Source: Chromatiales bacterium (GTDB taxonomy: Bacteria > Pseudomonadota > Gammaproteobacteria > Steroidobacterales > GCA-2729495). From it: a DNA stretch of 64,000 nt. A model generated the notes under the pieces. The model saw only the letters and a list, made by a program, of their open reading frames with translations. It was not told the DNA's origin and made no database searches. The stretch spans positions 1,244,831 through 1,308,830 of the forward strand of contig CP070671.1 of NCBI GenBank assembly GCA_020351875.1, given 5' to 3'. Below are positions 41,525 to 56,306 of the stretch, piece after piece; within the stretch, counting starts at the first letter, position 1, and each line of letters begins with the position of its first letter. The position numbers and the translations under genes are program-made.

Positions 41525-41971
41525 GATCTTTTCAGTTTGCGCAATGAAACCAACGCCCCAACAACAAGGTAGTTGGCAGATCACCAGTCCAGGGTTTACG
41601 TCAGCGGGACCGGCGGTTCGTGCGATGAATACATGTGGCCCCGCATGGAGTCAAACGGCGCGTGCCTGGCAGGTTGGGCGGATTCTGTATCAATCACTTG
41701 CGAGAAAGTCTTTAGGGACGGTCGAAGTGTCAACACGTGGCTTGCGCAGCGTTAAGCAAAGCCGCGGCAAATTGGTGCGCCAGGAAACGGGTGTTTAGTC
41801 TGGCCAGGCCCGGGCCGACTGGGAAGCAGTTGCAAGAAATCAGCGACGCAACAGATGCCTTGCGGGGTCGTTGCGTTTTTTGTTGCCTGCCCGCGTTCGC
41901 GACGGGCCAATCAGCAGGTTACTGAGCGTTCGTTGGCCGCCGGGTGCGCCATCTGTCATGCTCCTGCCGCC
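41525..41971. other. 447-base divergent intergenic region without a recognised gene
   Basis: This gap separates the fibronectin-domain gene (minus) from the MFS gene (plus). Short frames in it (for example 41573-41755) show no plausible protein. It contains a terminator-like hairpin near 41846-41880 and a GGCCCGGGCC palindrome near 41807. It may hold promoters for both genes or a small RNA. No tRNA fold could be drawn by eye. Confidence 0.4.
41846..41880 (+). terminator. Terminator-like hairpin upstream of the MFS gene
   Basis: ACGCAAC (41846-41852) pairs with GTTGCGT (41870-41876) around a 17-base loop, followed by further T residues so that the right arm runs into TTTTTTG. It ends about 90 bases before the MFS ATG, so it could end a short leader or small RNA rather than an annotated gene. 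The 7-bp stem and long loop keep confidence low. Confidence 0.4.
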
Positions 41972-43207
41972 ATGGCCGTGACAGCACCTATTAATCGTAA
42001 TTTCACGCTGGCGATCCTGATTTTTTCGTCATCCGTCAGCGTGCTGTCGACGGACCTGTACGCGCCCAGCCTGGCGAGCCTGCCCGAGTACTTCGGCACC
42101 AGCGCCGAAATGGTCAAGCTAACGATGACGCTGAACCTGCTGGCTTACGCGGTGTGCCAACTCGTCTACGGGCCGTTGTCCGATCGTTTCGGGCGCCGCC
42201 CGGTGCTGGTTGGTGGCATGCTCGCTTTTACCGCGGCGGGGCTGGCCTGCGCGCTCTCGCAGACCATCGAGCAGCTGGTGCTTGCCCGTGTATTCCAGGG
42301 TATTGCGGGCGCGGCCGAGGCGGTTTTGGTCTACGCGATCATTCGCGACCTGTTCGACGGTCGCGACCGGATTCGCGCGCTGGCTGTCTTTGGCATCATT
42401 TTTGGTGCGGCGCCGGCTGTGGGCCCGTTGCTCGGCGGATACATCCACGTCGCGTTTGGCTGGCGGGCGAATTTCTTCCTGCTCGCGGTGCTGGCATTCA
42501 TTTCGCTGCTGCTGATTCTCCGCTTCCTGCCGGAGTCGGCGGAACCGGATCATCATGCAATCAAGCTGCGGGAGATCGGTCGCGGTTACTTTGGTCTGCT
42601 CCGTGACCCGCTGTTCATGGGCTACGCGATCCTGATGGGCACCAGTGTGGCGGCAATATTCGCGTTCCTGACCGCGGGTCCGTTCATCCTCATCAACAAT
42701 TTCGGTGTCGCCACCGAGGACTTTGGCCTCTATTACTTCTTCATCGTGGCCAGTTACATGTTGGGCAGCCTGATCATCAACCGCGCCTCCCACGCGGTGG
42801 ATCCCCGCGTCTACCTATGGCTTGGTGTCCTGGTGTTCCTGTTGGGTGCGGGCCAGGTGATGTGGCAGGTGCAGAGTGGGGCAGAGACGCCGGTGTCCAT
42901 TACCGTGGGGATGTGCCTGATCTTTTTCGGCATTGCGCCGATCCTGGCAATCGGGCCGGCGAAGGCCCTGGATGCCACCACGAACCGCGTCGGCTTTGCT
43001 TCAGCGTTGTTGGGCTGCACGGAACTGGCGGTGGGCGGCTTGGGTGCTGCGCTGGTGACGGTGCTGCACGATGCAACCTCCATGCCGCTGGCCATCACGC
43101 TGGTGGCAGTGGCGGTGTGTGCGGCGTATGTACTTTGGCTGGTCGGTCGCCGCGAGAAGCAGCTGCACCTCGCCTCTTGCAAAGCCGGGGGAGCACCTGA
43201 TCCCTGA
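41972..43207 (+). CDS. Bcr/CflA-family drug-resistance MFS transporter
   Basis: A 411-residue, 12-helix exporter. SVLSTDLYAPSLASLPEYFG in helix 1 is the D-x-Y-x-P signature of Bcr/CflA efflux pumps, and LVYGPLSDRFGRRPVLVGG between helices 2 and 3 is the MFS loop. ARVFQGIAGAAEAVLVYAIIRDLFDGRDR near 110 is helix 4 and its following loop. It probably exports a toxic compound by proton antiport. The ATG at 41972 begins the transmembrane protein; a longer in-frame start at 41855 overlaps the hairpin and adds non-homologous residues. It converges on the third nitrilase gene. Confidence 0.9.
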   Translation: MAVTAPINRNFTLAILIFSSSVSVLSTDLYAPSLASLPEYFGTSAEMVKLTMTLNLLAYAVCQLVYGPLSDRFGRRPVLVGGMLAFTAAGLACALSQTIEQLVLARVFQGIAGAAEAVLVYAIIRDLFDGRDRIRALAVFGIIFGAAPAVGPLLGGYIHVAFGWRANFFLLAVLAFISLLLILRFLPESAEPDHHAIKLREIGRGYFGLLRDPLFMGYAILMGTSVAAIFAFLTAGPFILINNFGVATEDFGLYYFFIVASYMLGSLIINRASHAVDPRVYLWLGVLVFLLGAGQVMWQVQSGAETPVSITVGMCLIFFGIAPILAIGPAKALDATTNRVGFASALLGCTELAVGGLGAALVTVLHDATSMPLAITLVAVAVCAAYVLWLVGRREKQLHLASCKAGGAPDP

Positions 43208-43233
43208 GACTCTGGCGTCACGCGCCAGGCGGG

Positions 43234-44232
43234 CTAGTCCGCATCGTCCCCACCAGATTCCAGCGTGTCGTCGCTGTCGTCGTACGCCCGTTGCACGGGG
43301 GCCATTGGCTCGTCGTTGAGCCACAGCCGGACGACGTCCGGGCGCGCGTAGTGACCGTTCGGGTCGTAGGCGATCTTCGCCATGTCGATCATCCCGAGGT
43401 CGATGTCGGCGTACAGGATACCTTCTTCGTGCTCGCCCAGCGGCTCAACGAGCTCCCGGCCGTCGGGCCCGTAGATCATCGTGTAGCCGCCACCGGTGCG
43501 GAACGGGGCAGCGGCTTCGGCGCTGCCGGCGATGGTTTTCAATAACGCGTCATCCGTGACCGCGCAGGGCGCCAATACGAAACACTGGCCTTCCACCGCG
43601 TAGATCTTGCTCGCCGCGTTGTTCACTTCGTGCCCGAAAGCGTAAACGGCGTCCTGGTCCAGCCCGAAGCTCGGCCACGCGGCGAAGTGAATCTGTTCGC
43701 GCTGCGCGTACAACGCGAACTTGTTCAGCGGGCCCAGGTGTTCCCAGCAGCACAGCGCGCCAATGCGCCCGATGTCCGTGTCGGCCACCACCAGGTCAGA
43801 ACCGTCGCCCTCGCCGAAGACCATGCGTTCGGCCATCGTCGGTTTCAGCTTGCGCCGGGCAAAGACAAAAGCGCCCTGGTCATCGATCAGCGCCTGCGCG
43901 AGGTACAGGCTGTCGCCGCCCAGTTCGCTGAAGCCCAGGGCCACGTGAATCCCGTGTTCCTGCGCAGCGTCCTGTATCGCGCGCATTTCGTCGCTGTCGA
44001 CGGCCAGCGAATTCTGCTTGTACGCCGCGAAGTGCGGCATGCCCTGGAACGGCGCGTTCACGAATACCCAGAACGGAAAACCCGGAATCCACGCCTCGCT
44101 GAAGGCCACCAGCGCCGCGCCGTTGTCGGCCGCTTCGCCGATCAGGGCAATGGTCTTTTCAACGGAACCGGCCAGATCCATGAAGACTGGTACGGCCTGC
44201 ACGGCTGCGACCCGGAACTGTGATCTGGCCAT
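43234..44232 (-). CDS. Nitrilase (branch 1) paired with aldoxime dehydratase, third of four
   Basis: A 332-residue nitrilase. Glutamate in LVAFSEAWIPGFPFW (FSE instead of the usual FPE, about 45), lysine in VFARRKLKPTMAERMVFGEGDGSDL (about 125) and cysteine in GALCCWEHLGPLNKFAL (about 160) complete the triad. The CWEH-x2-P-L block is characteristic of true nitrilases and cyanide hydratase-like enzymes. The ATG at 44232 has AAGGA at a good distance; one at 44268 is less likely. It diverges from the aldoxime dehydratase gene across 179 bases. Oxd-nitrilase linkage is known from aldoxime-degrading bacteria, so this enzyme probably converts the nitrile product to acid and ammonia. Confidence 0.95.
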   Translation of the reverse strand: MARSQFRVAAVQAVPVFMDLAGSVEKTIALIGEAADNGAALVAFSEAWIPGFPFWVFVNAPFQGMPHFAAYKQNSLAVDSDEMRAIQDAAQEHGIHVALGFSELGGDSLYLAQALIDDQGAFVFARRKLKPTMAERMVFGEGDGSDLVVADTDIGRIGALCCWEHLGPLNKFALYAQREQIHFAAWPSFGLDQDAVYAFGHEVNNAASKIYAVEGQCFVLAPCAVTDDALLKTIAGSAEAAAPFRTGGGYTMIYGPDGRELVEPLGEHEEGILYADIDLGMIDMAKIAYDPNGHYARPDVVRLWLNDEPMAPVQRAYDDSDDTLESGGDDAD

Positions 44233-44411
44233 CGGTCCTTCCCCCGGTAAGTCAAGCGCTGAACTCATGTTAGCAAACCGCGGCCGGTGCCAAGTCCGCC
44301 CCGGCGGCGCGGTTTGTTATGTGGGACGCTTGCGAGGCATTGCCGCATCGGCTAGCGTCGCCACTCACCAGCTCGATCGGTTTTCGTTTCAGGTTTTCAG
44401 CACGCCGCACC

Positions 44412-45416
44412 ATGAAGCTCCGGCCACCCGATTTCGAACCGCCGTACCCGGCCTTTACCTGCCAGTTGTTCAACCTGAAGCCCGACATGACGCTCGGGCA
44501 GATTGCGCTGCAGTACCCGGACAATGACAAGCCCGCAGAAGTGGCGAGCCTGCAGGCAGCGATCGAGCAATGCCTGGCCGGCGACCGCGCACCGTGGCGG
44601 TGGGAGCGCTGTACGCACGTCGACACGCAGGGTTATCGCAACGACATCGTCGTCGCGTACTGGCACAAGCAGGCGGATTTCGACGCGTGGCGCCGGCGGG
44701 CGGATGTCGTTGCGTGGGCCGATACCTTGCAACCGGTCGGTCTCTGGTTCGAGGTATTGACCTGCCCGATACCCCAGATGGAAACCTCGTACAGCAATGC
44801 CGAGCCCGACTGGGGCTTGGCCGACCAGTGCCCGGTACACCTGGACGAATACCACGGGTATTTCGGTTCCATGCGTGACCGGATCCCGGCGGCGGAGGAC
44901 CAGGGTTTACCGGGTGCGCTGCGCAGTCTCCCGCCTGCCGACGTCGAGCAGAAAACGACTGGACGCCGGCTCACCGTCGAGTTGCCGGACAATGCCTGCT
45001 TCATTCGCACGGTGCAGGGCTGGGAAGACTGCGAAGCTGAACAGCAGGCCGATTTTCTCACCAGCATGATGCCGGTATACCGCGCCGGCGTGGAGTACCT
45101 TCGCGATAATCCCCGCGATGCCAATTGCGCGGGTGCGCGACTGGTGGAAATGCTCGATCCCGACGCGCAGATCCAGACGCAGACGCTAGCGTGGTTCCTC
45201 GGCCTGGAAGACCTCGAGCGGTGGGCTCACGAACACCCGACGCATCACGCGATACTCAGTGGCATGAGCGACTTCGCGGAGCGGCACAACCTGGATATCC
45301 AGATCGTGCTGGGCCACGAGGTCTACGTGGTGCCGGCCGGCTGCGGTCACATCGAGTATTCGAACTGTCATCCGCAAACCGGCTTCCTGCGCTTCCTGCC
45401 GGGCCGGCCGCTGTAG
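44412..45416 (+). CDS. oxd: Haem-containing aldoxime dehydratase
   Basis: A 334-residue protein of the phenylacetaldoxime dehydratase family, which dehydrates R-CH=NOH to R-CN using ferrous haem bound directly by the oxime nitrogen. Diagnostic blocks are DEYHGYFGSMRDRIP (145-159, catalytic arginine region), LERWAHEHPTHHAIL (268-282; H278 aligns with the proximal haem histidine), and VLGHEVYVVP with H302 at the distal catalytic histidine, then IEYSNCHPQTGFLR. The residue equivalent to the distal serine appears to be T200 (FIRTVQGW). Spacing between the two histidines is about three residues longer than I recall for OxdRE. The start at 44412 is chosen by homology; no clear ribosome site is seen. 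Confidence 0.9.
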   Translation: MKLRPPDFEPPYPAFTCQLFNLKPDMTLGQIALQYPDNDKPAEVASLQAAIEQCLAGDRAPWRWERCTHVDTQGYRNDIVVAYWHKQADFDAWRRRADVVAWADTLQPVGLWFEVLTCPIPQMETSYSNAEPDWGLADQCPVHLDEYHGYFGSMRDRIPAAEDQGLPGALRSLPPADVEQKTTGRRLTVELPDNACFIRTVQGWEDCEAEQQADFLTSMMPVYRAGVEYLRDNPRDANCAGARLVEMLDPDAQIQTQTLAWFLGLEDLERWAHEHPTHHAILSGMSDFAERHNLDIQIVLGHEVYVVPAGCGHIEYSNCHPQTGFLRFLPGRPL

Positions 45417-45425
45417 GCGCGAGCG

Positions 45426-46208
45426 GTGGAGCATTACCGCGTCAACGGCGTTCACGTCCAGCATGCCGGGCCGCCCGCATCGGAGTCGCGGCCGCCGCTG
45501 ATCTTCGTGCACGGCGGGCTGCACGGCAGCTGGAGCTGGCACCGGTTCCTGCCGGTGTTCAGCCATGCCGGCTGGGAGTGTCACGCGCTGGACTGGTACG
45601 GGCATCACGAGTCGGATGCCTTGCCGGCCGGGGAGTTTCTGACGCGCAGCATTGCCGACGTGGGCAGCGAGATCGGTCTGGTCGCGGCACACGTGGGCCG
45701 CGTGCCGGTGCTGGTTGGCCACAGCATGGGCGCGCTGGCCTGCCTGAAATATGCCGAAGCCGCGCCGGTGGCGGCGCTGGTACTGCTGGCCCCGGTGTTG
45801 CCGGAGGAGATCGGCAACCCGGACCTTCCACTGGACGTGGACCCGAACCGCCCGTGGGAGCCGCCACCCTTCGAACTGGCCCGGAAAATGTTCTTTGACG
45901 GTGTGGAAGAGAGCGACGCGCGACAGTATTACGAGCTGCTGTGCGCGGAGTCGCCACGCTGCGTGGCCGAAGCGACGGGCAAAGCGGCGGTGCCGGTCGA
46001 GCTCGACGCGTTGAACATGCCAACACTGATCCTGGTGGGCGAGGAAGACCGGCTCACCCCGGCGGATCTCGTGCAGGAGCTCGCCGGGCGCCTGGACGCC
46101 GACTTCAGGCGCTACGCAACGCGCAGCCACAGCCTGCTGGTCGACAAGGACGCCGAGCAGACCGCGGAATTGATCGCAGGCTGGCTCACCACGCGGCTGC
46201 ACGGCTAG
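45426..46208 (+). CDS. Alpha/beta-hydrolase
   Basis: A 260-residue alpha/beta-hydrolase. The oxyanion segment is LIFVHGGLHGSWSWH (about 25-39), the nucleophile elbow GHSMGA (serine about 100), the acid is probably the aspartate in LVGEEDRLTP (about 207), and the histidine is in RSHSLLVDKD (about 238). The GTG start at 45426 lies 9 bases after the aldoxime dehydratase stop, so the two are probably one transcript. It could hydrolyse an ester or a hydroxynitrile/aldoxime-derived intermediate; related folds include hydroxynitrile lyases and methylesterases, and the sequence alone does not decide. Confidence 0.88.
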   Translation: MEHYRVNGVHVQHAGPPASESRPPLIFVHGGLHGSWSWHRFLPVFSHAGWECHALDWYGHHESDALPAGEFLTRSIADVGSEIGLVAAHVGRVPVLVGHSMGALACLKYAEAAPVAALVLLAPVLPEEIGNPDLPLDVDPNRPWEPPPFELARKMFFDGVEESDARQYYELLCAESPRCVAEATGKAAVPVELDALNMPTLILVGEEDRLTPADLVQELAGRLDADFRRYATRSHSLLVDKDAEQTAELIAGWLTTRLHG

Positions 46209-46255
46209 CCACTCTCAGCGACTGCCGCAGGCCCGTTGCGTATGCTGGCTTCGCG

Positions 46256-47398
46256 TCAGCCGGAGCTGGCGCGTCGCGCGCGGTTTTCCCCAAAAGTCGG
46301 TTCACTCGCGTCCGCGTCCGACTTGCGGTCCTTCTCCATGTACGCGGGCCGCTTCCAGATGCCCCGTTCGTACATCCGCTCGCGCGCCGCGTGCACGATC
46401 TTGTCGTTGTCCGCATGCTTGAGGGGCGGGTCCACCAGGCAGCGGTTCTTTTCGTACATGGGCCGGTCGTAGATCGGCCGGAACTGCTCGGTGCGCAGGT
46501 CCTTCAGCCAGTTGCCCCACAGTGAACGGGCGCGGTACTGGCGCAGCGCCTCGATGTCGACGATGCCGCCGGCATAAGAGGCCCCGCCGCCGGCCGTGTG
46601 GTTCGACACGACCTGACCCTGGTAATCGACCAGCATCGACTTGCCGCCGAAGGTATCGAGCGGGAACTGGGACTCGGGCATCGGCAGATAGGCTGCCGGG
46701 TTCGGCGCAATCACGTACATGGTGTTGTCCAGCGCGCGGGAGCGGTTCTGGATCTCCCACAGGTCGTTCGCGACATAGGGTTCCGGGTAGCTGGGCCGGT
46801 ACACGATTTCCGCGCCGTTCATGGCCAGGCCGCGGGCGGTTTCCGGGTAGCTGCCTTCCATGCAGATCATGCAGCCGATGCGCCCGATCTCCGTCTCCGT
46901 GACCGGGAAGAACGCGTCGACGCCATCGCCATAGAGTTCCACCCACTTGTCCCACACGTCGTGCGGCACCGTGGAGTGTTCCCGGGCAAAAACCTGCAGC
47001 TTGTAGTGCGTGTGCACAACTTCGCCGCGCGGGTCCACGACGAAGGCGCAGTTGAAAAAGCGGTCCGGGAACTCCGGGTGCTTGGCCTTGGCCTGCGCAA
47101 CGATGTACGAATCCACGTCACGGGCCAGGTCACCCAGGTACTGGGTTTCCGGTCCGGGAATGTCGATGGCGGTGCGGTTCACGTAGTCCACGTGGTCCCA
47201 GTCGAAGATCTCGTCCGTGAATCCCTGCAGCGCGCCTTCCGGGATGGTGATCAGCCGCACCGGCAGGTCGATGGCGGTGAGCCAGATGGCGGCCCGGGCC
47301 AGTTCGGCGATGTGATCGAGATTCCGGGTGATTTCCGAGCGCTGATGCGTGCCCCGCATCACCGGCTGGAGGGCGAGGGCCATGTACTGCTCAATCAT
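46256..47398 (-). CDS. Nitrilase-superfamily hydrolase (divergent branch), fourth of four
   Basis: A 380-residue carbon-nitrogen hydrolase. Triad: glutamate in LITIPEGALQGF (about 54), lysine in VVHTHYKLQVFAREHS (about 133) and cysteine in RIGCMICMEGSYPE (about 175). The motifs differ from the other three copies (IPEG, HYKL, CMEGSYPE) and fit an amidase or N-carbamoyl-type branch rather than true nitrilases. It has a long charged C-terminal tail rich in Arg, Lys and Asp. The ATG at 47398 has GAGG eight bases upstream; a GTG at 47407 lies too close to it. Last gene of the long minus-strand cluster. Confidence 0.88.
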   Translation of the reverse strand: MIEQYMALALQPVMRGTHQRSEITRNLDHIAELARAAIWLTAIDLPVRLITIPEGALQGFTDEIFDWDHVDYVNRTAIDIPGPETQYLGDLARDVDSYIVAQAKAKHPEFPDRFFNCAFVVDPRGEVVHTHYKLQVFAREHSTVPHDVWDKWVELYGDGVDAFFPVTETEIGRIGCMICMEGSYPETARGLAMNGAEIVYRPSYPEPYVANDLWEIQNRSRALDNTMYVIAPNPAAYLPMPESQFPLDTFGGKSMLVDYQGQVVSNHTAGGGASYAGGIVDIEALRQYRARSLWGNWLKDLRTEQFRPIYDRPMYEKNRCLVDPPLKHADNDKIVHAARERMYERGIWKRPAYMEKDRKSDADASEPTFGENRARRASSG

Positions 47399-47515
47399 CA
47401 GGTGCACCTCGTAGTATGGCGGTTGATTTCAGGCCTGGTCGGCATTCCGAACCAAGTTATGCCGCATCGGTCCCGCGTGCAAGCACTGCCGGCGCCAGCC
47501 TCACCGGGGCGGTGG

Positions 47516-48694
47516 TCAAAAATCGCTGACCTGCAGCTCCACGTCCACCTCGTTGCGAAAGGCGGCGTGCAGGTAACAGGTTTGCTCGCCCATGTGCACC
47601 AGCTGCAGGTTGTCGGCAACCGGGTTGCTGCTGTCGAGGCACACGAAGGTGTCTACCGGCAGGGCCGCCGGGTCGTAAGGGTTGCCGTGGCGGAAGACCG
47701 TGTCCTGGACGATGCGGTAGCCACTGAGGTCCTGCTTCTTGATCTGCGCGTAGCGGCCGAGCTGGGTCATGAAGCAGAAGGCCACGCCGGCCGACAGGTA
47801 GGCAAGGCCGGACGGCGCGCGTTCCTGTCCACCCACGTCGGCAGCATCGTCACTGAGGAATACGAAGCGGCTGCCCGCCGGCTGTATGCACTGCACGGCC
47901 AGTTCCTTCAGCCCGTCGGGCCGCAGCCGCGCATCGGTGTGCACGTGCACCTGGCGTTTCTGGTCGGATGTCAGCCCCACGGCGCCGTCACTCGCCGGTG
48001 GCGGCGTGTCTTCGTCCTTGTAAATGATGTTTTCCACCGCCGGCGTATCGTCCGCAGGTTGCACCGCCGCCAGCGCCGCCGCCGGATCGGCCAGCGCGTC
48101 CATGGTGGGTGCGTCCTCACCGGACCAGCGCACAGGGCGACCGTTGAGCTTGATGCTGAATCGGCTTATCAGTTCGTCACGCAGCGTGATGCCGCCGGCG
48201 CTGCGGTCTTCCAGCGTGATGACGGCGATGTCTTCCAGTTCCCGCACGTCGGCATCGCCGGCCACCGTGATCGCCAGCCGAATCGGGTCGACGCTGGCGG
48301 CCATCGTGCCCTTCAGCGCGGAGCCTTCCATCGTGAAGAAATTGTCCACGCTCATGTCGAGGTGATCGATACGGATCTCCCGGTCGGCCGCTTCCGCGAG
48401 GTAATCCGACATCAGCTGGGCGGCCAGTCCCGCGGTGAAAAAGGCCAGCGGGAAGGGCGCGAGGTCGGTGCCGTTCAGCCACGGCCCCTCGTCGCACAGC
48501 AGTCGCCAGACCGCGCCCGTCGGTCCGTATTCGACGACGGCTTCTTTCTGCATGCCCTCCAGTGCGCGCGTGCGCGTGCGCACTCTCACCAGCGAATCCG
48601 TGCCGGGCAGCGGCGCGTCTTCGAAGACGCCGGCGTCGGCGCGAAACGCGACGGGGATATCGCCGGGACCCTGTGTGGATTTAGCCGCTGGCAT
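47516..48694 (-). CDS. Tandem two-domain OsmC-family protein
   Basis: A 392-residue protein, about twice the usual OsmC length. The C-terminal half (from about 235) is a normal OsmC domain: AYLSAGVAFCFMTQLGRYA contains the first redox cysteine and LVHMGEQTCYLHAAFRN the second. The N-terminal half has the same helix (FPLAFFTAGLAAQLMSDYL) but lacks both cysteines. This suggests an internal pseudo-dimer with one active site. OsmC proteins reduce organic hydroperoxides. Its start overlaps the F420-reductase-like gene by 14 bases, so the two are co-translated. A proline- and acid-rich linker (DEDTPPPAS) joins the halves. Confidence 0.78.
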   Translation of the reverse strand: MPAAKSTQGPGDIPVAFRADAGVFEDAPLPGTDSLVRVRTRTRALEGMQKEAVVEYGPTGAVWRLLCDEGPWLNGTDLAPFPLAFFTAGLAAQLMSDYLAEAADREIRIDHLDMSVDNFFTMEGSALKGTMAASVDPIRLAITVAGDADVRELEDIAVITLEDRSAGGITLRDELISRFSIKLNGRPVRWSGEDAPTMDALADPAAALAAVQPADDTPAVENIIYKDEDTPPPASDGAVGLTSDQKRQVHVHTDARLRPDGLKELAVQCIQPAGSRFVFLSDDAADVGGQERAPSGLAYLSAGVAFCFMTQLGRYAQIKKQDLSGYRIVQDTVFRHGNPYDPAALPVDTFVCLDSSNPVADNLQLVHMGEQTCYLHAAFRNEVDVELQVSDF

Positions 48695-49355
48695 GGCCGG
48701 TAATGCGGATGCCCGCGCCGTCGATCTTGTACTTCTTGTTCAGGAAGATCAGGATCGATGTGAGCCCCTCGGCGACTGCAGAATTGTCGATCGCCCCCGC
48801 GTGCCAGGCCTTCAGCCCGATGGCTTCGGCAAGATCGACGACCACTTGCCTGGCGTCCGGATCGTTGCCGCAGACGAGCACGTCACAATCTTCCTCATCC
48901 TGCTTGCCGGCCCGCAGGTGCGCGGCGGCAATATTCTGAAAAGCGGACACCACGCGCACGTCTTCGCCCAGGAAGTCCTGGGTTTGCTTCGCGGCCGAGC
49001 CGCCCTCGGGTAGCTGCACGCGCATCACCTTCGGCGGCATCAGCGGCACGGTCGAATCCACGAAGATCTTGCCCTGCACCTGGTCGCGGATGGTTTCCAG
49101 CGTCGACATCTGGTGCGCGTAGGGCACCGTGAGAATGATCACGTCGGCCCAGGCCGAGGCCTCCACATTGTCGCCGCCACGCACGTCCACGTCCGGTGCT
49201 GCCTTCAGCACTTCGGCGGCCGCCGTTTCGCCTTTTTCCGCCTTGCGCGAGCCGATCATCACCGGATGCCCGGCCTTGGCCAGCTGCAGGGCCAGGCCCC
49301 AGCCGAGGTCGCCGGTACCGCCCAGCACAGCAATCTTGTCTTTTGCATCAGTCAT
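48681..49355 (-). CDS. NADPH-dependent F420 reductase-like protein
   Basis: A 224-residue protein opening with KIAVLGGTGDLGWGLALQLAKAGHPVMIGSRKAEK, the GxGxxG dinucleotide motif followed by the S-R motif that selects NADPH in F420:NADPH oxidoreductases. ADVIILTVPYAHQ near 70, DSTVPLMPP near 100 and KAWHAGAIDNSAVAEGLTSILIFLNKKYK near 180 match the family. It may transfer hydride between NADPH and a deazaflavin, but relatives acting on other acceptors exist. GAGGGAAAG lies upstream of the ATG. A luciferase-like monooxygenase, often F420-dependent, is encoded in the same cluster. Confidence 0.85.
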   Translation of the reverse strand: MTDAKDKIAVLGGTGDLGWGLALQLAKAGHPVMIGSRKAEKGETAAAEVLKAAPDVDVRGGDNVEASAWADVIILTVPYAHQMSTLETIRDQVQGKIFVDSTVPLMPPKVMRVQLPEGGSAAKQTQDFLGEDVRVVSAFQNIAAAHLRAGKQDEEDCDVLVCGNDPDARQVVVDLAEAIGLKAWHAGAIDNSAVAEGLTSILIFLNKKYKIDGAGIRITGHASG

Positions 49356-49366
49356 CTTGCTTTCCC

Positions 49367-50557
49367 TCAGGCCGCAGCCTTCGCATCGTCGGCCAGGCGG
49401 ATGAATTCTTCATCCGTCACCAGTCGCTCCTCGCTGGTACCGAGCTCCTTGACCTTCGCGAGTACCGGCGCGTACAGGGACTCCGGCAGGTCGATGCCCA
49501 GTTCTTCTTTCTTCAGCTTGATGCTGAGCAGACCGCTTTTCTTCCCCAGCACGATGCGTCGCGGGGCGCCGACGATGTCGTGGGAATAGGGCTCGATGGC
49601 CTCGGGTATGTGGAACTGGTTTGCCACGGCGCCGCTCTCGCGGGTGAACAGGTTATCGCCGACTACGGGTCGCCAGCCGTCAACGTGGTAGTTCCCTGCC
49701 TGTTGCACCAGTGCGGAGACTTCCCGGCCCTTCTCGAGGTTGATTTCCACCGGCACGTCGTACAGGCACTTCAGGGCCAGCGCGACTTCCAGCAGGTCGG
49801 AGTTGCCGGCCCGCTCGCCGATGCCGTTGATCGTGCCCTGGATCCAGTCGGCACCGCCGCGCACGGCCGCGATCGCCAGCGCGGTGCCGAGCCCGAAGTC
49901 GTTATGGCCATGGAAGTGCAGCGGGATGTCCGGGCCAATCCAGCCGCGCACTTCGCGCACCATCCACTCCACCGCTTCCGGCGCGCAGGCACCGATGGTG
50001 TCGACGACGGCGATCTCCGCCGCACCGGCCTCCAGCGCCGTGTCGTACACGCTGTGCAGGAAATCCAGGTCGCTGCGCGTGCTGTCCACCGCGAAGAACA
50101 GCACCTTCATATCGTTCGCGACAGCGTGCTTCACCGCGTCGCGGACCTTGTTCACCACCTTCGGCCGGTCAAAGCCGTAGGCCTTGATCTTCAGGTCGCT
50201 GGTGGAGATTTCGATCAGCGTCTGCTTGATGCCCAGCTCGATCAGCGCGTCCAGGTCGGCCGCGACTGCCCGCGAAAAGCCCCAGATCTCCGAGTCCAGG
50301 CCCGCGTTCAGGATCCGTTTCACGGCCTGGGAATCTGCCGCCGACACGCGGGGGAAGCCAGCCTCGATACGGCCGATGCCAAGGTCGGCCAGCGCTGACG
50401 CGATCTGGAATTTTTCCTCGGGGTTGAACACGATGCCGACGGCCTGTTCACCGTCGCGCAGCGTCGTGTCATAGAGCTTCACGGGTTTCGAACGGTCGAA
50501 GCCGCCGGCCACCTCGTCGCGGCCGTTCAGCTCGCTAGTCCAGATCTTGTCTTGCAT
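49367..50557 (-). CDS. DRE-TIM metallolyase (2-isopropylmalate/homocitrate-synthase-like)
   Basis: A 396-residue HMGL-like TIM-barrel enzyme. KLYDTTLRDGEQAVG (about 27-41) holds the metal aspartate and catalytic arginine, HFHGHNDFGLGTALA (about 215) the metal histidines, and GTINGIGERAGNSDL (about 247) the signature-2 block. The family condenses acetyl-CoA with a 2-oxo acid. It lacks the C-terminal LeuA regulatory domain, so homocitrate- or citramalate-type, or a catabolic variant, fits better than leucine synthesis. GAGAGGACG precedes the ATG. Its placement among hydrolases suggests a role in a dedicated pathway. Confidence 0.88.
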   Translation of the reverse strand: MQDKIWTSELNGRDEVAGGFDRSKPVKLYDTTLRDGEQAVGIVFNPEEKFQIASALADLGIGRIEAGFPRVSAADSQAVKRILNAGLDSEIWGFSRAVAADLDALIELGIKQTLIEISTSDLKIKAYGFDRPKVVNKVRDAVKHAVANDMKVLFFAVDSTRSDLDFLHSVYDTALEAGAAEIAVVDTIGACAPEAVEWMVREVRGWIGPDIPLHFHGHNDFGLGTALAIAAVRGGADWIQGTINGIGERAGNSDLLEVALALKCLYDVPVEINLEKGREVSALVQQAGNYHVDGWRPVVGDNLFTRESGAVANQFHIPEAIEPYSHDIVGAPRRIVLGKKSGLLSIKLKKEELGIDLPESLYAPVLAKVKELGTSEERLVTDEEFIRLADDAKAAA

Positions 50558-50595
50558 ATCGTCCTCTCGTCATCCCCGGACCTGCAGATGCGTCC

Positions 50596-50673
50596 GTAGG
50601 AGCGGCTTCAGCCGCGATTCCAATTCATGTGTCAATGGTTCACCAGCAAGATCGCGGCTGAAGCCGCTCCTAC
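50596..50673. repeat. REP-like palindrome pair, 23-bp arms
   Basis: A perfect 23-bp inverted repeat (50596-50618 and 50651-50673) separated by 32 bases. The core is GGAGCGGCTTCAGCCGCGA. It lies between the M20 gene and the HMGL-like gene on the minus strand, inside an apparent operon, where it could protect mRNA ends or attenuate transcription. Confidence 0.9.
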
Positions 50674-50704
50674 AGGTGGGCCATGATCCTGGTTGGCGCC
50701 CAGC

Positions 50705-51976
50705 TCAATCTACCGTACCGCAGATGCTCAGGATGCACTGGATATAGACCTTGATGATGTCCAGCATGTCGCCGATGTGCACCGCCTCGCCCTGCAGGGT
50801 CGAGAAACCGCCTCCGCCGGAGCGAATCCGGCCGGCGGAGCCGTAGTTTACGGTCGGAATGCCGTAGCGGTTCATGTGGGCCGCATCGCTGTACCAGATT
50901 TCGTTACCGAACTCCGGCGCTTCACCCAGTTGCTGGGTGTGGGCCTCGACGATGGTTTTCACCAGTTCGTGATCGTCCGGGATGGACGTGCCCGGCGCCG
51001 ACACGTAGATGTCGACCGTGGTGCCTTCCAGGAACGCGTGTTCTTTCACCAGCTCGCGAATCATGCCGCGGACTTCGCGCAGCACGTCCATTGGCAACAC
51101 GTCCGGCGGTGTGCGCACGTCCATGTAAATACAGCAGTTGTCCGGCGTGCGCGCGCCGCGCCATGGCCAGCCGCCCTCGATGGCGGCGATATTCACCTTC
51201 GGCTGCGTGCCCCCGAACTCGTTGCGCTTCATGTACTCCGGGATCCAGTCGTTCAGCGTTTTCAGGATCACGTTGGAATTGCTGATCGCATTCTTCTCGT
51301 GCTCCGACCACGCGGTGTGTATCAGCATCCCGGGCACGGTGATCTTCAGCCACGTAGTACCGCAGTGACGCGGGATCACCATCATGTTGGTGGGTTCGCC
51401 GAGGATGCAGTAGTCCGCCACCGCGCCGTGCGTGATCGCGTACTTGGTGCCCGGGCCATAACCCTGGTACTGGCGCCCGTCGAAGTCGTTTACCGGCGCT
51501 TTTTCGATCTCGCCGGCGACACCGGCAATTACCACGTCACCGCCCAGCTTGATGCCGGCCGCCTGGATGGATTCCGTCGCGACGATGTAGGTGGCCAGCG
51601 CACTCTTCATGTTGAAGGTGCCCATGCCGTAGATCCATTCATCGTCGACCACGGTGCCTTCGCATCGGTAACCCAGGCCGCGATGGGCCTGCTCCGGGCC
51701 GAAAGACGTGTCGAGGTGCCCGTTGAACATCAGTGACTGGCCGCCGCCCTGGCCTTCGAACAGGCCGATCGCGTTGTAGCGGTCGTCACCGATGGGCTGC
51801 AGCGTGGAGCGGAAGTTCGCGCCCTGCAGCACTTCGTGCAGCGCCCGTGCCATGTCGCCTTCGTAGCCCGTCGGGCTCGGGACGTTGACCAGCTGCACCA
51901 CCAGGTCCACCAGCCGCTCGCGGTTGATCTGGTCGACGGCCTTCTGGACCAGGTCCGGGTTCACTTTGTTCGGCAT
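50705..51976 (-). CDS. M20-family metallohydrolase (ArgE/DapE-like) with altered metal site
   Basis: A 423-residue zinc amidohydrolase. LMFNGHLDTSF (about 83-93) gives the first metal histidine and the aspartate. The following bridging position reads GMGTFNMKSALAT (about 118), with asparagine where most members have aspartate. The usual Glu-Glu pair is in VAGVAGEIEKAP (about 150), ILGEPTNMMV follows near 190, and a C-terminal SDAAHMNRYGIPT carries another histidine. It probably cleaves an N-acyl or carbamoyl amide, releasing an amine. GAGGGG precedes the ATG. Some M20 subfamilies naturally carry N-M-K here, so activity is still possible. Confidence 0.87.
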   Translation of the reverse strand: MPNKVNPDLVQKAVDQINRERLVDLVVQLVNVPSPTGYEGDMARALHEVLQGANFRSTLQPIGDDRYNAIGLFEGQGGGQSLMFNGHLDTSFGPEQAHRGLGYRCEGTVVDDEWIYGMGTFNMKSALATYIVATESIQAAGIKLGGDVVIAGVAGEIEKAPVNDFDGRQYQGYGPGTKYAITHGAVADYCILGEPTNMMVIPRHCGTTWLKITVPGMLIHTAWSEHEKNAISNSNVILKTLNDWIPEYMKRNEFGGTQPKVNIAAIEGGWPWRGARTPDNCCIYMDVRTPPDVLPMDVLREVRGMIRELVKEHAFLEGTTVDIYVSAPGTSIPDDHELVKTIVEAHTQQLGEAPEFGNEIWYSDAAHMNRYGIPTVNYGSAGRIRSGGGGFSTLQGEAVHIGDMLDIIKVYIQCILSICGTVD

Positions 51977-52000
51977 GTTCGGCCCCTCGGTAATCTGTCG

Positions 52001-52957
52001 TTATTCGCTGGCCACGATATGGGTCGTCAGCGTGCCCAGTTCGGCCACGGCGGCATCCACCGTGTCACCCGGCTTCAGCCAGTCCGGTACCGCCATGCCG
52101 GCGGCCACGCCGGGCGGGCTGCCGCTGGTGATGATGTCGCCCGGTTCCAGCGTGGTGTTCGACCACCAGGACACGAGTTCCGCAGTTTTGTAGTGCATCT
52201 GCGAGGTGTTGGCGTCCTGGCGTACGTTGCCGTTGACGCTGAGCTTCATTGCCAGGTTATGCGGGTCGCTGAGCTCGTCCACTGTCACCAGGTGCGGCCC
52301 GAAGGGGCAGGAGCCGTCGAAGCTCTTGCCCAGCAGGATCACCTTGTTGGAGTGCTCGCGGGCCTGGATGTCGCGGGCGGACAGGTCATTGAAGATCGTG
52401 TAACCGGCGACGTAGTCCATCGCTTCGTCCACCGGCACGCGAAACGCGCGTTTGCCGATGATGATGCCGATTTCGATTTCGTAGTCGAGCTCGCGGGTGA
52501 AGTGGGGCACAGCGACGCTGGCGCCGGAAGCGACCACCGACGAGGGTGCCTCGAGAAATCCCGTGGGATGCTCGAAGTGGAATTCGCCCCAGTTGTGTGA
52601 CTGCCACTCGGGTTGGTTCCAGCCCGTGAGCTCCTCCAGGTGCGCGTCGAAGTTGCACGACGTGTGCATGATCTTGCCCGGCCGCGGCACCGGCGCCAGC
52701 AGCTGGACCTCTTCGGCCTGGTACGCACAGCGCTGGCCCGCGCCGTTTTTCAGGTTCTCGGGGGCCGACGGGTCCAGGTCGAGGCCGGCCAGCGCGTTGC
52801 GCGCCTGGTCCATGGCGGCCTTGCCGTGTTCCAGGAACGCGATCATGTCGTTGGGCAGCGCCCCGTCCGTCAGCGCGTGCAGGTCCACGTAGCAGTCCTG
52901 CACATAGGCGCCGACGGTTCGGTGGCCATTCGGTGTATTGAAGCTTGCAAGTCTCAT
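52001..52957 (-). CDS. Fumarylacetoacetate hydrolase (FAH) family protein
   Basis: A 318-residue FAH-fold enzyme. An N-terminal domain (MRLASFNTPNGHRTVGAY) precedes the catalytic core: IMHTSCNFDAHLEE near 97, TRELDYEIEIGIIIGK (about 155-170) with two metal-binding glutamates, GYTIFNDLSARDIQ near 190 with the aspartate, and LEPGDIITSGSPPGV near 275. The family hydrolyses or decarboxylates beta-diketones and acylpyruvates, the standard C-C cleavage step of aromatic meta-cleavage routes. Located 4 bases downstream of the luciferase-like gene, so transcription is shared. Confidence 0.9.
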   Translation of the reverse strand: MRLASFNTPNGHRTVGAYVQDCYVDLHALTDGALPNDMIAFLEHGKAAMDQARNALAGLDLDPSAPENLKNGAGQRCAYQAEEVQLLAPVPRPGKIMHTSCNFDAHLEELTGWNQPEWQSHNWGEFHFEHPTGFLEAPSSVVASGASVAVPHFTRELDYEIEIGIIIGKRAFRVPVDEAMDYVAGYTIFNDLSARDIQAREHSNKVILLGKSFDGSCPFGPHLVTVDELSDPHNLAMKLSVNGNVRQDANTSQMHYKTAELVSWWSNTTLEPGDIITSGSPPGVAAGMAVPDWLKPGDTVDAAVAELGTLTTHIVASE

Positions 52958-52961
52958 GGTC

Positions 52962-54041
52962 TTACAGTCCCGGTTTCAGTTTCGGCAGCACTGCTTCGCC
53001 GAACAGTCGGATGGTTTCCAGGTTGTCGGCCTCGCTGGCGCCAACGACCTCTAGCAGCGGCAGGTTCAGGCCTGCGTCCACCAGTTCCTGGGTGATCTCC
53101 AGGCACTCATCCGGCGTGCCGGAGATGACGGTGAAGCGGCGCTGGATCTCGTCACTGACCAGGTGCGTCACGTTGTCTTCGGTGCCTTCTTCAATGGCCT
53201 TGCGGAACGGGTTCCAGGTCTCGTCCGGCAGCCCGGAAGAACTCAGGATAATGTCGTTTTTGATGTTGCGCAGCTTGTTGATCACGTACGTGCCGGTGTA
53301 ACTGCGAGTCGCGTCCTTGGCCTTTGCGCCATCCTTGTTGCACGCGGCCAGGATCACGCCGCCCACCGGGAAGTCCGACGGTAGCTCGCGGCCGACCTTT
53401 TCGGCGCCTTCCCAGCAGTTCTGGCGGGCGTAGCTCGTGAAGCCCGGTGAGGTCAGGCCCGGCAGCAGCAGACCGTCAAATTCGCGACCGCCGAGTTTTT
53501 GCATGAAGGGTCCGGTGGCGCCGATGTACACCGGGATGTCGGTGCGCAGGCCGCGCGACTTGCGGTCAACGGCCGGCATATCGCACGCGTAGAGTTCACC
53601 TTCGTACTTGAAGGCCTCTCCGCTCGCGATGCCGCGAATCATCTCGGCAGACTCGTGGTGGGTCTTCACCGGCGTATATTTTTTCATGTCCAGGTCGAGG
53701 TATTCGGTGCCAACCTTGCCGGCGCCGATACCCATGATGAAACGCCCACCCGACAGTTCGTCGATCGCATTACTTTCCGATGCCTGGATGGTGGGATGGC
53801 GCATGTAGGGGGAGGTGATGCCCAGCCCGATCGGGATCTTTTTCGTCGCCATTGCGGCAGCGGCGAGCGTCGTGAAGCAGCCGCGTGCCTCGTGGCCGTA
53901 CTTGCGGAACCAGTGATAGGCCTCAGCGATCCAGAAACCGCCGTTGTAACCGGACTCTTCCGTCTGCGCCGCGTATTTCTGAATCGACGCCAGGGGTTCG
54001 TAGGACTTGAAGATGACCCCGACTTTGGGTTGTGTACTCAT
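52962..54041 (-). CDS. Luciferase-like (LLM class) flavin/F420-dependent oxidoreductase
   Basis: A 359-residue TIM-barrel LLM protein. GVIFKSYEPLASIQKYAAQTEESGYNGGFWIAE at the start, IPIGLGITSPYMRHP near 72, DELSGGRFIMGIGAGK near 95 and IPVYIGATGPFMQKLGG near 172 are the family landmarks. The IYIGATGP and GRFILGxGAG types occur in F420-dependent methylenetetrahydromethanopterin-reductase-like enzymes, but FMN members also exist. It would oxidise or reduce an organic substrate. The minus strand shows a near-consensus GGAGG before the ATG, the strongest ribosome site in the cluster. Confidence 0.9.
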   Translation of the reverse strand: MSTQPKVGVIFKSYEPLASIQKYAAQTEESGYNGGFWIAEAYHWFRKYGHEARGCFTTLAAAAMATKKIPIGLGITSPYMRHPTIQASESNAIDELSGGRFIMGIGAGKVGTEYLDLDMKKYTPVKTHHESAEMIRGIASGEAFKYEGELYACDMPAVDRKSRGLRTDIPVYIGATGPFMQKLGGREFDGLLLPGLTSPGFTSYARQNCWEGAEKVGRELPSDFPVGGVILAACNKDGAKAKDATRSYTGTYVINKLRNIKNDIILSSSGLPDETWNPFRKAIEEGTEDNVTHLVSDEIQRRFTVISGTPDECLEITQELVDAGLNLPLLEVVGASEADNLETIRLFGEAVLPKLKPGL

Positions 54042-54110
54042 TTGCTTTACCTCCTCTCGAATTCTGCTCTGTCTAAATCTGTATCGGCTCGGGCGCCTGT
54101 GGAAGCCCTG

Positions 54111-54133
54111 GTAGGAGCGGCTTCAGCCGCGAT
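54111..54133 (+). repeat. Single REP-like unit
   Basis: One copy of the GGAGCGGCTTCAGCCGCGA unit with the same GTA prefix and T suffix as at 50596. It sits in the gap between the luciferase-like gene and the M24 gene. GCGGCT/AGCCGC forms a small hairpin with a two-base loop. Confidence 0.8.
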
Positions 54134-54137
54134 TCCT

Positions 54138-55292
54138 CTAAAGCTCTGCCTCACCGCCCCGGTACCACTTCACCGGGATGCCGGATAGCGGCACGCCGCC
54201 GTCTTTCGTGACCTGGAAGGTCTCCTGGAAATACAGGCTGGCCGTTCGGTCTTCCGTCATCACGTGCGGGTGCATGGAACACACCATGTTCTCCACCAGC
54301 TCGAATTCCGAACCTTCACCGATGCGCGGGTGCTCGATCATTGTCATGCCGATGGAATGTCCGCACACGTGGCCCATCCGCCAGCCCTTGCCTTCAAAGG
54401 GCTTCACGCACTTGCGGTGCACGTCTTCCGCCGATGCGCCCGTCTTCATGTGCTCCTTCGCGAGTGCGTGGAATTCTTCGTAGGCGTCCATCAGTTGCTG
54501 GGTTTCCGGGCTCAGTCCCTGCGGTGCCAGCAGGCGGGAGAACTCCACCCAGTGCCCGCCGGTGCCGGACACCTCCAGCCCGTACAGCAAGCCGTCGCTG
54601 TCCCGCACCTTGCGCTGCGGGTCTGCGAACACCATCTGCGGCAGCAGTGAGCCGTTCGGGCCGATCAGCACCATGTCCATCGTGTTGCGCGCGGTGCCCA
54701 TGGACGCAAAAGTGTTCTCGGCCACGCCCATCAGCTCGGCCTCGGTCTTGCCCTCTGCATAGGCCTGGACCACGGCCAGCACCCCGGCCTTGTTGACCGC
54801 CATGGAATGGCGGATGGACGCCAGCTCTTCTTCGCTCTTCTGGGCGCGGGCGTGGTCGAAGGCCACATCGAAATTCACGATCTCCAGCCCCGCATCCACG
54901 AGGGCCTGGTAGTCCCGCACATTGATCACGAACTCGAGGCCATAGACACCGACGCGCTTCCAGCCCTGGTCACGGCAGTAGTTGGCGATCCACTCACCGC
55001 AGTGAGGGACTTTGACCTGCTCTTCGACGAAGGTCGCCGTGTGATCGCCCACCCAGGTCGCTTCCTTCGGGTAAACCGAGACCGGATCGCCCTGCGGCGG
55101 CACCACGACATAGGCGTAGCGGTGCAGCAGGTGAAAGCCGCTCATGTAGCGCACTGCGCCTTCAAAGCCGGTGTACTCGCTGCCGCTGACGATCAAACCG
55201 TCCAGCCCTTGCTCGGCCATCGCAGCGCGGATGTTGCGGTAGCGGCGGTCGATTTCCTGCTGGCTGGGCTGAAAGGGGTGGGTCTGGCTCAT
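54138..55292 (-). CDS. M24-family (Xaa-Pro peptidase/creatinase fold) protein lacking normal metal ligands
   Basis: A 384-residue pita-bread-fold protein with the N-terminal creatinase-like domain (RNIRAAMAEQGLDGLIVSG ... YVVVPPQGDPVSVYP) and a C-terminal M24 domain. The metal site looks degraded: where peptidases have D-x-G-x4-G-Y-x2-D, this protein reads DGLLYGLEVSGTGGHW, and where they have a final glutamate in V-x-T-I-E-P it has MVCSMHPHVM. The histidine in GHSIGMTMIEHP remains. Creatinase itself works without metal through a histidine, so a C-N hydrolase is more likely than a peptidase. Start at 55292 has a weak AGCAGG site. Confidence 0.82.
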   Translation of the reverse strand: MSQTHPFQPSQQEIDRRYRNIRAAMAEQGLDGLIVSGSEYTGFEGAVRYMSGFHLLHRYAYVVVPPQGDPVSVYPKEATWVGDHTATFVEEQVKVPHCGEWIANYCRDQGWKRVGVYGLEFVINVRDYQALVDAGLEIVNFDVAFDHARAQKSEEELASIRHSMAVNKAGVLAVVQAYAEGKTEAELMGVAENTFASMGTARNTMDMVLIGPNGSLLPQMVFADPQRKVRDSDGLLYGLEVSGTGGHWVEFSRLLAPQGLSPETQQLMDAYEEFHALAKEHMKTGASAEDVHRKCVKPFEGKGWRMGHVCGHSIGMTMIEHPRIGEGSEFELVENMVCSMHPHVMTEDRTASLYFQETFQVTKDGGVPLSGIPVKWYRGGEAEL

Positions 55293-55337
55293 GTTGACCT
55301 GCTCTTGGTTGGGAATGCTCTCATTAAGGCTGCTCTT

Positions 55338-55360
55338 GTGGGAGCGGCTTCAGCCGCGAT
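55338..55360 (+). repeat. Single REP-like unit (GTG variant)
   Basis: One copy with prefix GTG instead of GTA before GGAGCGGCTTCAGCCGCGA. It lies between the M24 gene and the first PanE-like gene and ends only 5 bases before the latter's stop codon. Confidence 0.8.
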
Positions 55361-55364
55361 TTCC

Positions 55365-56285
55365 CTATCCTGTCAGCGTCCACGAGTGCTCCAGGCCCTC
55401 GATCAGGGCCCAGATCGCTTCGTTCATCGGCGTGGGTACGTTGTATTGCCGGCCAAATTCCACGATGCCGCCGTTCAGCGCCGCGACTTCGGTTCGCCGC
55501 TCGGCCAGTGCGTCCTGCAGCATGCTGGCCTTGTGGTTGTAGGCCACTTCCCGGGCATGGTCGACCAGCGCATCCGGGTCACTGTCCAGCGTAATGCCCT
55601 GGGCTTCGGCCACGGCCACGCCCTCGGCCACGAGCTGGGAAATCAGCGCGCGCACTTTCGGCTGGTCGCAGGCCACGCCGTGGGGCAGGCGGGTGAGGGC
55701 ACCGATCGGATTGGTCGATGCGTTGAATATCAGCTTGGTCCACTGGGCGCCACGCGAATCTTCCATCGCCAGCGTTTCCATGCCGGACTCGGTGAGCGCA
55801 TCGGCCAGTTGGCGGATCTCTTCCATGCTCGCGGATTGCGGCTCGAAGGGCCCCATCCAGGTCTTGCCGCCGGTGTCCTGCTGCACGTGACCCGGCTCGA
55901 CGATACGTCCCGCCGGAAAGGTGGTGCCGCGGATCACGCGGGGCACGTACTCGGCGATGATTTCCTCGTTGCCCACGCCGTTTTGCACGGAGCAAACTGC
56001 ACCGTCCGGGAATACGCCGGCGGTGGCTTCGATGGCCGCGCGCGTGTGCAGCGTCTTCGTGGCCACGATGCCGAAGTCACAGGCTGGAATGTCCGCCGGG
56101 TTGGTGCTGGCTTTCGGCTGCGAATGCACGTTGCCTTCGCCGGACAGCCGCAGGCCACTGGCATTGATCGCGTCGACGTGCGCCTGGTCCAGGTCGTAAG
56201 CCCAGACTTCGACATCGTCACGCTGCGCGAGATAAGCCGCAAACAGGCTGCCGATGGCGCCGCACCCGACGATACAAACTTTCAT
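55365..56285 (-). CDS. Ketopantoate-reductase (PanE/ApbA) family protein, copy A
   Basis: A 306-residue NADP-dependent 2-oxo acid/ester reductase. MKVCIVGCGAIGSLFAAYLAQRDDVEVWAYD is the Rossmann motif, FGIVATKTLHTRAAI near 80 and VQNGVGNEEIIAEY near 105 match PanE, WTKLIFNASTNPIGALTRLP near 190 holds the K-x3-N substrate site, and HKASMLQDALAERRTEVAALNGGIVE near 260 is the C-terminal signature. AGGAG precedes the ATG. With a second paralog 21 bases upstream, a catabolic rather than pantothenate role is likely. Confidence 0.9.
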   Translation of the reverse strand: MKVCIVGCGAIGSLFAAYLAQRDDVEVWAYDLDQAHVDAINASGLRLSGEGNVHSQPKASTNPADIPACDFGIVATKTLHTRAAIEATAGVFPDGAVCSVQNGVGNEEIIAEYVPRVIRGTTFPAGRIVEPGHVQQDTGGKTWMGPFEPQSASMEEIRQLADALTESGMETLAMEDSRGAQWTKLIFNASTNPIGALTRLPHGVACDQPKVRALISQLVAEGVAVAEAQGITLDSDPDALVDHAREVAYNHKASMLQDALAERRTEVAALNGGIVEFGRQYNVPTPMNEAIWALIEGLEHSWTLTG

Positions 56286-56306
56286 TCCTGACTCCTGGCG
56301 ATGTCT

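Follow-up and report, generated by a model that had tools for sequence, protein, structure and literature searches.

A haem aldoxime dehydratase gene divergent from a nitrilase gene in a Chromatiales bacterium: a probable aldoxime–nitrile pathway locus

The 64,000-nucleotide stretch of Chromatiales bacterium DNA analysed here (GenBank assembly GCA_020351875.1, contig CP070671.1, positions 1,244,831 to 1,308,830 of the forward strand; hereafter the window) carries a gene that family, fold and key residues confirm as encoding a haem aldoxime dehydratase (Oxd), whose haem binding and catalysis are predicted from sequence and model. The Oxd open reading frame (ORF; 44412–45416, plus strand, 334 aa) diverges from that of a true nitrilase (43234–44268, minus strand, 344 aa) and is followed by that of an alpha/beta-hydrolase (45426–46208, plus strand, 260 aa, GTG start). 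We propose that this is probably an aldoxime–nitrile pathway locus, serving uptake and then the conversion of aldoxime to nitrile and of nitrile to acid. A sequence-only reading of the window had put forward the aldoxime-to-acid route, which is supported by the family, the fold, the key residues and the linkage of Oxd to nitrilase genes.

Family, fold and key residues of the aldoxime dehydratase

The top Pfam family of the Oxd is PF13816 (217.6 bits against a cut-off of 25, E 3.4e-64), and no other family scored better, the runner-up reaching 31.3 bits. The GSMRDR, HPTHH, GHEV and NCHP-TGF blocks on which the gene had been called an aldoxime dehydratase are all present in its translation, and the closest PDB sequence is OxdB (7f2y; E 2.1e-53, 32% identity, 325 residues). 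An alternative ATG at 44319 would lengthen the protein to 365 aa; the start at 44412 is preferred because homology to the solved Oxds begins at residue 2–5 of the 334-aa reading. An AlphaFold2 model (38 sequences; mean predicted local distance difference test score 87.8, predicted template modelling score 0.89) matches the two-domain ferredoxin-like fold of the solved enzymes, namely OxdRE (3a15; Z 39.9, root mean square deviation 2.4, 324 residues), OxdB (7f2z; Z 39.9, root mean square deviation 2.8, 326 residues) and OxdA (3w08; Z 38.2), the first non-Oxd entry having a Z of only 8.0. In this protein-only model H278 and H302 lie at the haem-site positions.

With the native numbering of OxdRE taken as chain position minus 20, under which Arg178, Ser219, His299 and His320 fit their residue types, R157 (codon 44880–44882, plus strand, as for all residues here) aligns with Arg178, and H278 (45243–45245) aligns with H282 of OxdB and with His299 of OxdRE, which we take to be the proximal haem ligand. 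H302, whose codon together with that of G301 occupies 45312–45317, corresponds to OxdRE His320 and OxdB H306, and T200 (45009–45011) stands at the Ser219 place, where OxdB has Thr too. R157, H278 and H302 are identical in all 38 rows of our alignment, which takes in 37 of the 80 named loci described below, omits L079, replaces the range of L041 by the open frame and shortens the ends of L062 and L068. Passages of an earlier study (PMC5391958) describe His320 as the acid–base residue and Ser219 as holding the substrate, and the role of Arg178 is likewise described there.

A thorough tree search with 51 Oxds places the window protein in a clade of six members (support 100/99), outside which lie OxdB, OxdRE and OxdA. 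The other five members come from an Egibacteraceae metagenome-assembled genome (MAG; L035, 42% identity), from Microbulbifer (L036 and L038), from a Sphingomonadales MAG (L037) and from a Rhodococcus plasmid (L032). The tree is unrooted, has long branches and carries a long-branch-join warning, one long-branch row (L028) having been left out; fungal and most other characterised Oxds are outside it, and the clade is uncharacterised in the sense of standing apart from the three solved enzymes. Five of the six members are among the 38 aligned rows, and these show T or G at position 200 and, at 301, G or S; in the other 33 rows S occupies 200 and an aromatic residue, namely W, Y or F, occupies 301. 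The sixth member, L032, has G at both positions; OxdB combines T at the first of them with W at the second. The place of the Oxd in this clade, with Thr or Gly at the Ser219 position and a small residue ahead of the distal histidine, is one of three unusual traits of the locus.

The nitrilase and its linkage to Oxd genes

That a true nitrilase diverges from the Oxd gene was correctly read: its product matches PF00795 (173.9 bits), the two starts are 143 bp apart, and E58, K140 and C174 sit in the expected motifs, presumably the E-K-C motifs of true nitrilases. The protein is of the Nit6803/arylaceto type; its best solved relative is NitA (6zby; 386 bits over residues 15–327), and on the Nit6803 equivalog TIGR04048 (NCBIfam) it scores 246.7 bits, below the cut-off of 502.6.

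For comparison with other genomes a profile alignment was used because a single-sequence scan of the genome contigs gave no Oxd relative. The profile search of contigs yielded at least 545 confirmed Oxd relatives, the best 80 of which were kept as named loci; with 10 genome stretches and 2 plasmids these make up the 92 loci compared (L022–L033 and L035–L114), while L034, from Halomonas, and L001–L021, which are short, stand outside the count. The 92 cannot be treated as independent: Bradyrhizobium titles account for 45 of the 80 named loci, some MAGs give two loci, and at least two contigs (L025 and L058; L026 and L077) look duplicated, judging by their length. A nitrilase relative lies upstream of the Oxd gene and on the same strand in 84 of the 92 (75 of the 80 named loci, counting L079 as one fused ORF, and 9 of the 12 others) and, once the Bradyrhizobium titles are set aside, in 30 of 35 named loci; among loci of this usual order the gap exceeds 300 bases in L041 and L049 only. 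The remaining eight (L036, L037, L038, L044, L073, L027, L031 and L032) gave no nitrilase match, L044 being cut at a contig edge where a nitrilase fragment is present. According to excerpts of a 2022 review (PMC8955678), the genes of Oxd and of nitrilase or nitrile hydratase are often in one operon. Oxd–nitrilase linkage is therefore ordinary, and not confined to a few degraders as the sequence-only reading had it; the exception is the divergent order of the window. L035, which holds the closest Oxd relative, carries a nitrilase 58% identical to that of the window and a nitronate-monooxygenase relative (52.6%).

We also observed a natural nitrilase–Oxd fusion, a single 686-codon open frame in the Rhodobiaceae MAG MED730 (L079:8951–11008, NZFC01000004.1) with a CN_hydrolase domain at 8–283 and a Dehydratase_hem domain at 379–679, the sole ORF with both domains among 226 loci. 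The stretch itself has no N, but only one MAG shows the fusion and other parts of its contig do contain N, so an assembly error is possible. Pairs of nitrilase and Oxd genes (nit-oxd) were found also on Klebsiella pneumoniae and Escherichia coli plasmids (NZ_CP020902.1 and NZ_CP021881.1).

TonB-dependent receptors at nit-oxd loci

The window encodes, at 25526–28246 on the minus strand, a TonB-dependent receptor of a subfamily that elsewhere is found upstream of nit-oxd, and this receptor is likely a partner of the Oxd, a link that we infer from receptor trees. Sixteen receptor ORFs were found in the 92 Oxd loci, 11 of them directly upstream of nit-oxd: L039, L040, L041, L069, L052, L057, L075, L092 and L101, from Alphaproteobacteria and Gammaproteobacteria, and L023 and L024, from the same taxonomic order as the window. 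The setting with a receptor, which had been thought to lack precedent, thus has one. Ten of the 11 receptors share the strand of nit-oxd, the opposite orientation being that of L040, where an AraC-type gene lies between; an AraC-type regulator is present in all three of these loci checked by Pfam (L039, L040 and L041). In L041 (922–9286, an Emcibacter MAG) the run comprises nitronate monooxygenase, AraC, receptor, nitrilase, an octopine-dehydrogenase-like protein, a 185-aa protein without a Pfam match, and Oxd.

In a quick receptor tree, which omitted three fragments shorter than 550 aa, the 11 receptors, that of the window and one further receptor of its own genome form one group (Shimodaira–Hasegawa-like approximate likelihood ratio support 100), apart from the remaining 29 rows, of which the window's genome contributes 25. 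A clade of 17 rows resulted when five receptors were added from class genomes that had been picked without regard to Oxd: 12 from nit-oxd loci, the window's own and four not beside an Oxd gene. The idea that the subfamily is exclusive to nit-oxd was rejected on account of these four. Receptor matches at E<=1e-60 occur in at least 5 of 369 class genomes, own genome included (two candidates scored per genome); among the four others, one (G388) has its receptor beside a nitrilase and one (G400) has a receptor outside the clade. The receptor–nit-oxd loci carry Oxds from the other side of the Oxd tree, outside the window's clade.

The literature searched, which covered few subscription journals, contained no paper on the receptor–nit-oxd arrangement, and passages of PMC12462448, PMC6460282 and PMC13060819 contain no account of these loci.

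The alpha/beta-hydrolase

The hydrolase matches PF00561 and PF12697 (82–83 bits) and has a GHSMG nucleophile motif at residues 98–102; this elbow and the Gly of its VHGG block are, in our judgement, esterase-like. Its PDB matches are weak and mixed, a monoacylglycerol lipase coming first (E 8e-10) and a hydroxynitrile lyase second (2.1e-8); hydroxynitrile lyase identity is considered possible but is not supported. The closest relative found (44%) lies in L215:8077–10045 of genome G265, of the same class, divergent from a nitronate-monooxygenase relative; G265 also encodes two receptors that belong to the nit-oxd subfamily, and it gave no Oxd match in the class-genome search. Another relative, 33% identical, is found on the Rhodococcus USK13 plasmid, where 22 kb separate it from the Oxd gene. 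The claim that the hydrolase is coupled to the Oxd holds for the spacing, 9 bases separating the Oxd stop from the hydrolase start; coupling itself is read from this gap only, and the linkage does not recur in any of the 92 loci. What we say of its role is a guess.

Distribution and probable acquisition

Counting the window's own genome each time, Oxd matches were found in 4 of 147 relatives, the other three being of the same order, in 6 of 369 genomes of the class, one match being a 53-residue fragment that contains a stop, and in 13 of 398 genomes of the phylum; the 39 genomes of the same genus and family gave none. Nor did any of the 39 have a nitrilase match above 50 bits, the best being 36 bits. 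Because neither gene was matched in these close genomes, Oxd and nitrilase were probably gained by this lineage. No colinear block around 46256–47407 was found in same-genus or same-family genomes, where only that gene is more than 60% identical and the relatives of other window genes are scattered at 25–44%, so that the insertion point could not be defined. An island marked by G+C was considered and rejected, G+C being 0.60–0.68 across 18–60 kb with no island signal.

The presumed control region and other genes of the window

The 143 bp that separate the two divergent gene starts (44269–44411) are presumed to be the control region. A scan of 43200–46300 found no sigma-70-like consensus site (0.4 expected in shuffles) and no consensus promoters or terminators above shuffles. 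No transcription regulator adjoins the module, the flanking genes being a major facilitator superfamily transporter (41855–43207) and an amidase-like CN hydrolase (46256–47407).

Beside the receptor gene lies that of a third nitrilase-type enzyme (24358–25488, minus strand; PF00795 147.2 bits, 33% identical to the Oxd-linked nitrilase) and farther off that of a second (22893–23837, plus strand; PF00795 168.5 bits, 36%), both possible accessories, with a cupin protein encoded between the two. On TIGR04048 they score 180.9 and 226.7 bits, respectively, both below the cut-off. A nitronate-monooxygenase family protein (29252–30277, minus strand; PF03060 164.3 bits) is a further possible accessory, and its link to the Oxd is suggestive: relatives were found in 2 of the 92 Oxd loci, the closest being that of L035 mentioned above and the other that of L041 (44.5%), and L035 also holds an NmrA-type relative (36%) of the window gene at 28362–29255. 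In the 369 class genomes, with up to five candidates scored per genome, matches at E<=1e-40 reach at most 39%.

The CN hydrolase at 46256–47407 is of a different kind, its best solved relatives being formamidases; the type has 11 matches in the window's own genome and up to 14 in relatives, and is present in 74 of 79 genomes searched (own included). This gene belongs to a minus-strand run (46256–57284) that encodes, besides the amidase-like CN hydrolase, OsmC-related, NADPH-dependent F420 reductase, HMGL-like synthase, M20, FAH, luciferase-like oxidoreductase and M24 proteins and two ApbA proteins. The F420 reductase exceeds its NCBIfam cut-off, and the run is possibly an F420-using catabolic operon; no tie between it and the Oxd was found. 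Elsewhere in the window the types are catabolic (nitrilases, amidase, aldehyde dehydrogenase, AMP-ligase, thiolase), and a Pfam scan of 40 of the window's ORFs, mostly beyond the first 17 kb, turned up no biosynthetic core gene.

Discussion

By analogy with characterised Oxds, the haem protein would dehydrate an aldoxime to a nitrile, its ferrous haem binding the oxime nitrogen, with H278 holding the iron and H302 and R157 carrying out proton transfer. The divergent nitrilase would turn the nitrile into ammonia and an acid. The hydrolase, whose translation is probably coupled to that of the Oxd, would probably trim an ester or similar bond on substrate or product, and the receptor and further nitrilases at 22.9–28.2 kb may have a part in uptake and in handling other nitriles from the same diet. 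Family, fold, residue alignment, gene order and the linkage in other genomes are results of this analysis, whereas activity, mechanism, substrate, the co-regulation of the genes, the role of the hydrolase and any link to the genes at 22.9–30.3 kb are what we infer. We claim no new chemistry; the module is of a known kind, and what is unusual is the clade of its Oxd, the divergent order and the hydrolase, neither that order nor a relative of the hydrolase occurring in any of the 92 loci.

Several findings weigh against the pathway that we propose. On the OxdA equivalog NF050090 (NCBIfam) the window Oxd scores 179.9 bits, below the cut-off of 600, and it belongs to the same superfamily as that equivalog and not to the equivalog itself. 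The residue at the Ser219 place is Thr, as in OxdB, an active enzyme according to excerpts of PMC8955678. The lack of any divergent nitrilase–Oxd pair in the compared loci leaves shared control unproven, and a hydrolase relative (E<=1e-10) is missing from all 92 stretches. Within the clade a nitrilase is nearby in two of six members (the window and L035) and in none of the available stretches of L036, L037, L038 and L032. The receptor subfamily, typical of nit-oxd loci, is found away from Oxd as well, and the nitronate-monooxygenase type occurs without Oxd in plasmid stretches of Nonomuraea (49.7%) and Synechocystis (pSYSG, 43.2%).

It is tempting to extend the proposal into a route from outer membrane to acid, in which the distal pocket of the clade (Thr or Gly at 200, a small residue at 301) would fit a bulky oxime or isoxazoline natural product taken up by a dedicated TonB-dependent receptor, the hydrolase and nitrilases finishing the breakdown. 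We hold this extension to be doubtful, and one point lowers its odds slightly: the Oxds of the receptor-linked loci are not members of the window's clade.

A related and unlikely alternative is that the clade's Oxd has shifted to another N–O bond, opening an isoxazoline or a bulky natural-product oxime by Kemp-type or ring-opening dehydration, with nitrilase and hydrolase acting on the product. According to passages of a 2024 review (PMC11568032), Oxds convert 4,5-dihydroisoxazoles to 3-hydroxynitriles and benzisoxazoles to cyanophenoxides; the changed distal site is common to the clade, and the receptor–nit-oxd loci would suggest a substrate too large for porins. However, H302, R157 and H278 are unchanged, the substrate assignment is predicted only, the ordinary enzyme OxdB also has Thr at the 200 place, and the receptor argument is drawn from loci whose Oxds are not of this clade.

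That the three genes merely lie side by side, with no pathway in common, the Oxd standing alone, the nitrilase acting on other nitriles and the hydrolase being unrelated, seems to us improbable. The divergent order, the hydrolase linkage that is not repeated and the scarcity of nitrilases in the clade would all be expected of such neighbours, but a nitrilase relative accompanies Oxd in 84 of the 92 loci, that of the closest relative L035 included, and the absence of both Oxd and nitrilase matches from the 39 close genomes argues that both were probably gained by the lineage. That the nitrile is made for a biosynthetic purpose instead of being catabolised, a view for which the four of six clade members without a nitrilase nearby might speak, is very improbable given the catabolic gene types elsewhere in the window and the lack of a biosynthetic core gene among the scanned ORFs. 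We favour the aldoxime–nitrile pathway locus.

Aldoxime dehydratases make nitriles without cyanide, and they are sought-after biocatalysts. In passages of the 2024 review (PMC11568032), 27 Oxd genes are counted as expressed, 19 of them with confirmed activity. What determines substrate range can be tested directly with a clade that excludes the three solved enzymes and has an altered residue next to the catalytic histidine, and together with the receptor-linked loci this clade makes questions of substrate testable. The receptor–nit-oxd loci give a handle on the oximes that bacteria meet in nature, natural encounters with oximes being treated for plants in the excerpts of PMC8955678, and the nitrilase–Oxd fusion protein could be a ready-made one-pot catalyst.

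Comparison with known systems

OxdB of Bacillus sp. OxB-1 (7f2y/7f2z) resembles the window enzyme in its fold, in 32% identity, in the Thr at the Ser219 place and in having both the haem and the distal histidine. Its gene cluster presumably includes a nitrilase. The cluster is shown as an example in the excerpts of PMC8955678. Unlike the window Oxd, OxdB lies outside the clade and has Trp before the distal histidine where the window has Gly, and it is the window whose gene order is divergent. OxdRE (3a15) and OxdA (3w08) share the fold, and the equivalents of OxdRE Arg178, His299 and His320 are present in the window enzyme, whereas identity is 28–29% and both have Ser219. Their clusters, we assume, carry nitrile hydratase. 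Nitrile hydratase with Oxd is described for rhodococci and Pseudomonas K-9 in paper titles and in the same excerpts (PMC8955678).

The nit-oxd pairs of Bradyrhizobium, Pseudomonas, Erwinia and Pantoea have the same two enzyme families side by side but differ from the window in being co-directional with the nitrilase first, in Oxds about 30–36% identical and in having no hydrolase relative in the available stretches. NitA, by the match given above, is the solved enzyme most like the window nitrilase. The receptor–nit-oxd loci share with the window a receptor of the same subfamily, a nitrilase and an Oxd, but they are compact; the window's receptor is encoded 16 kb away from the Oxd gene and next to another nitrilase gene.

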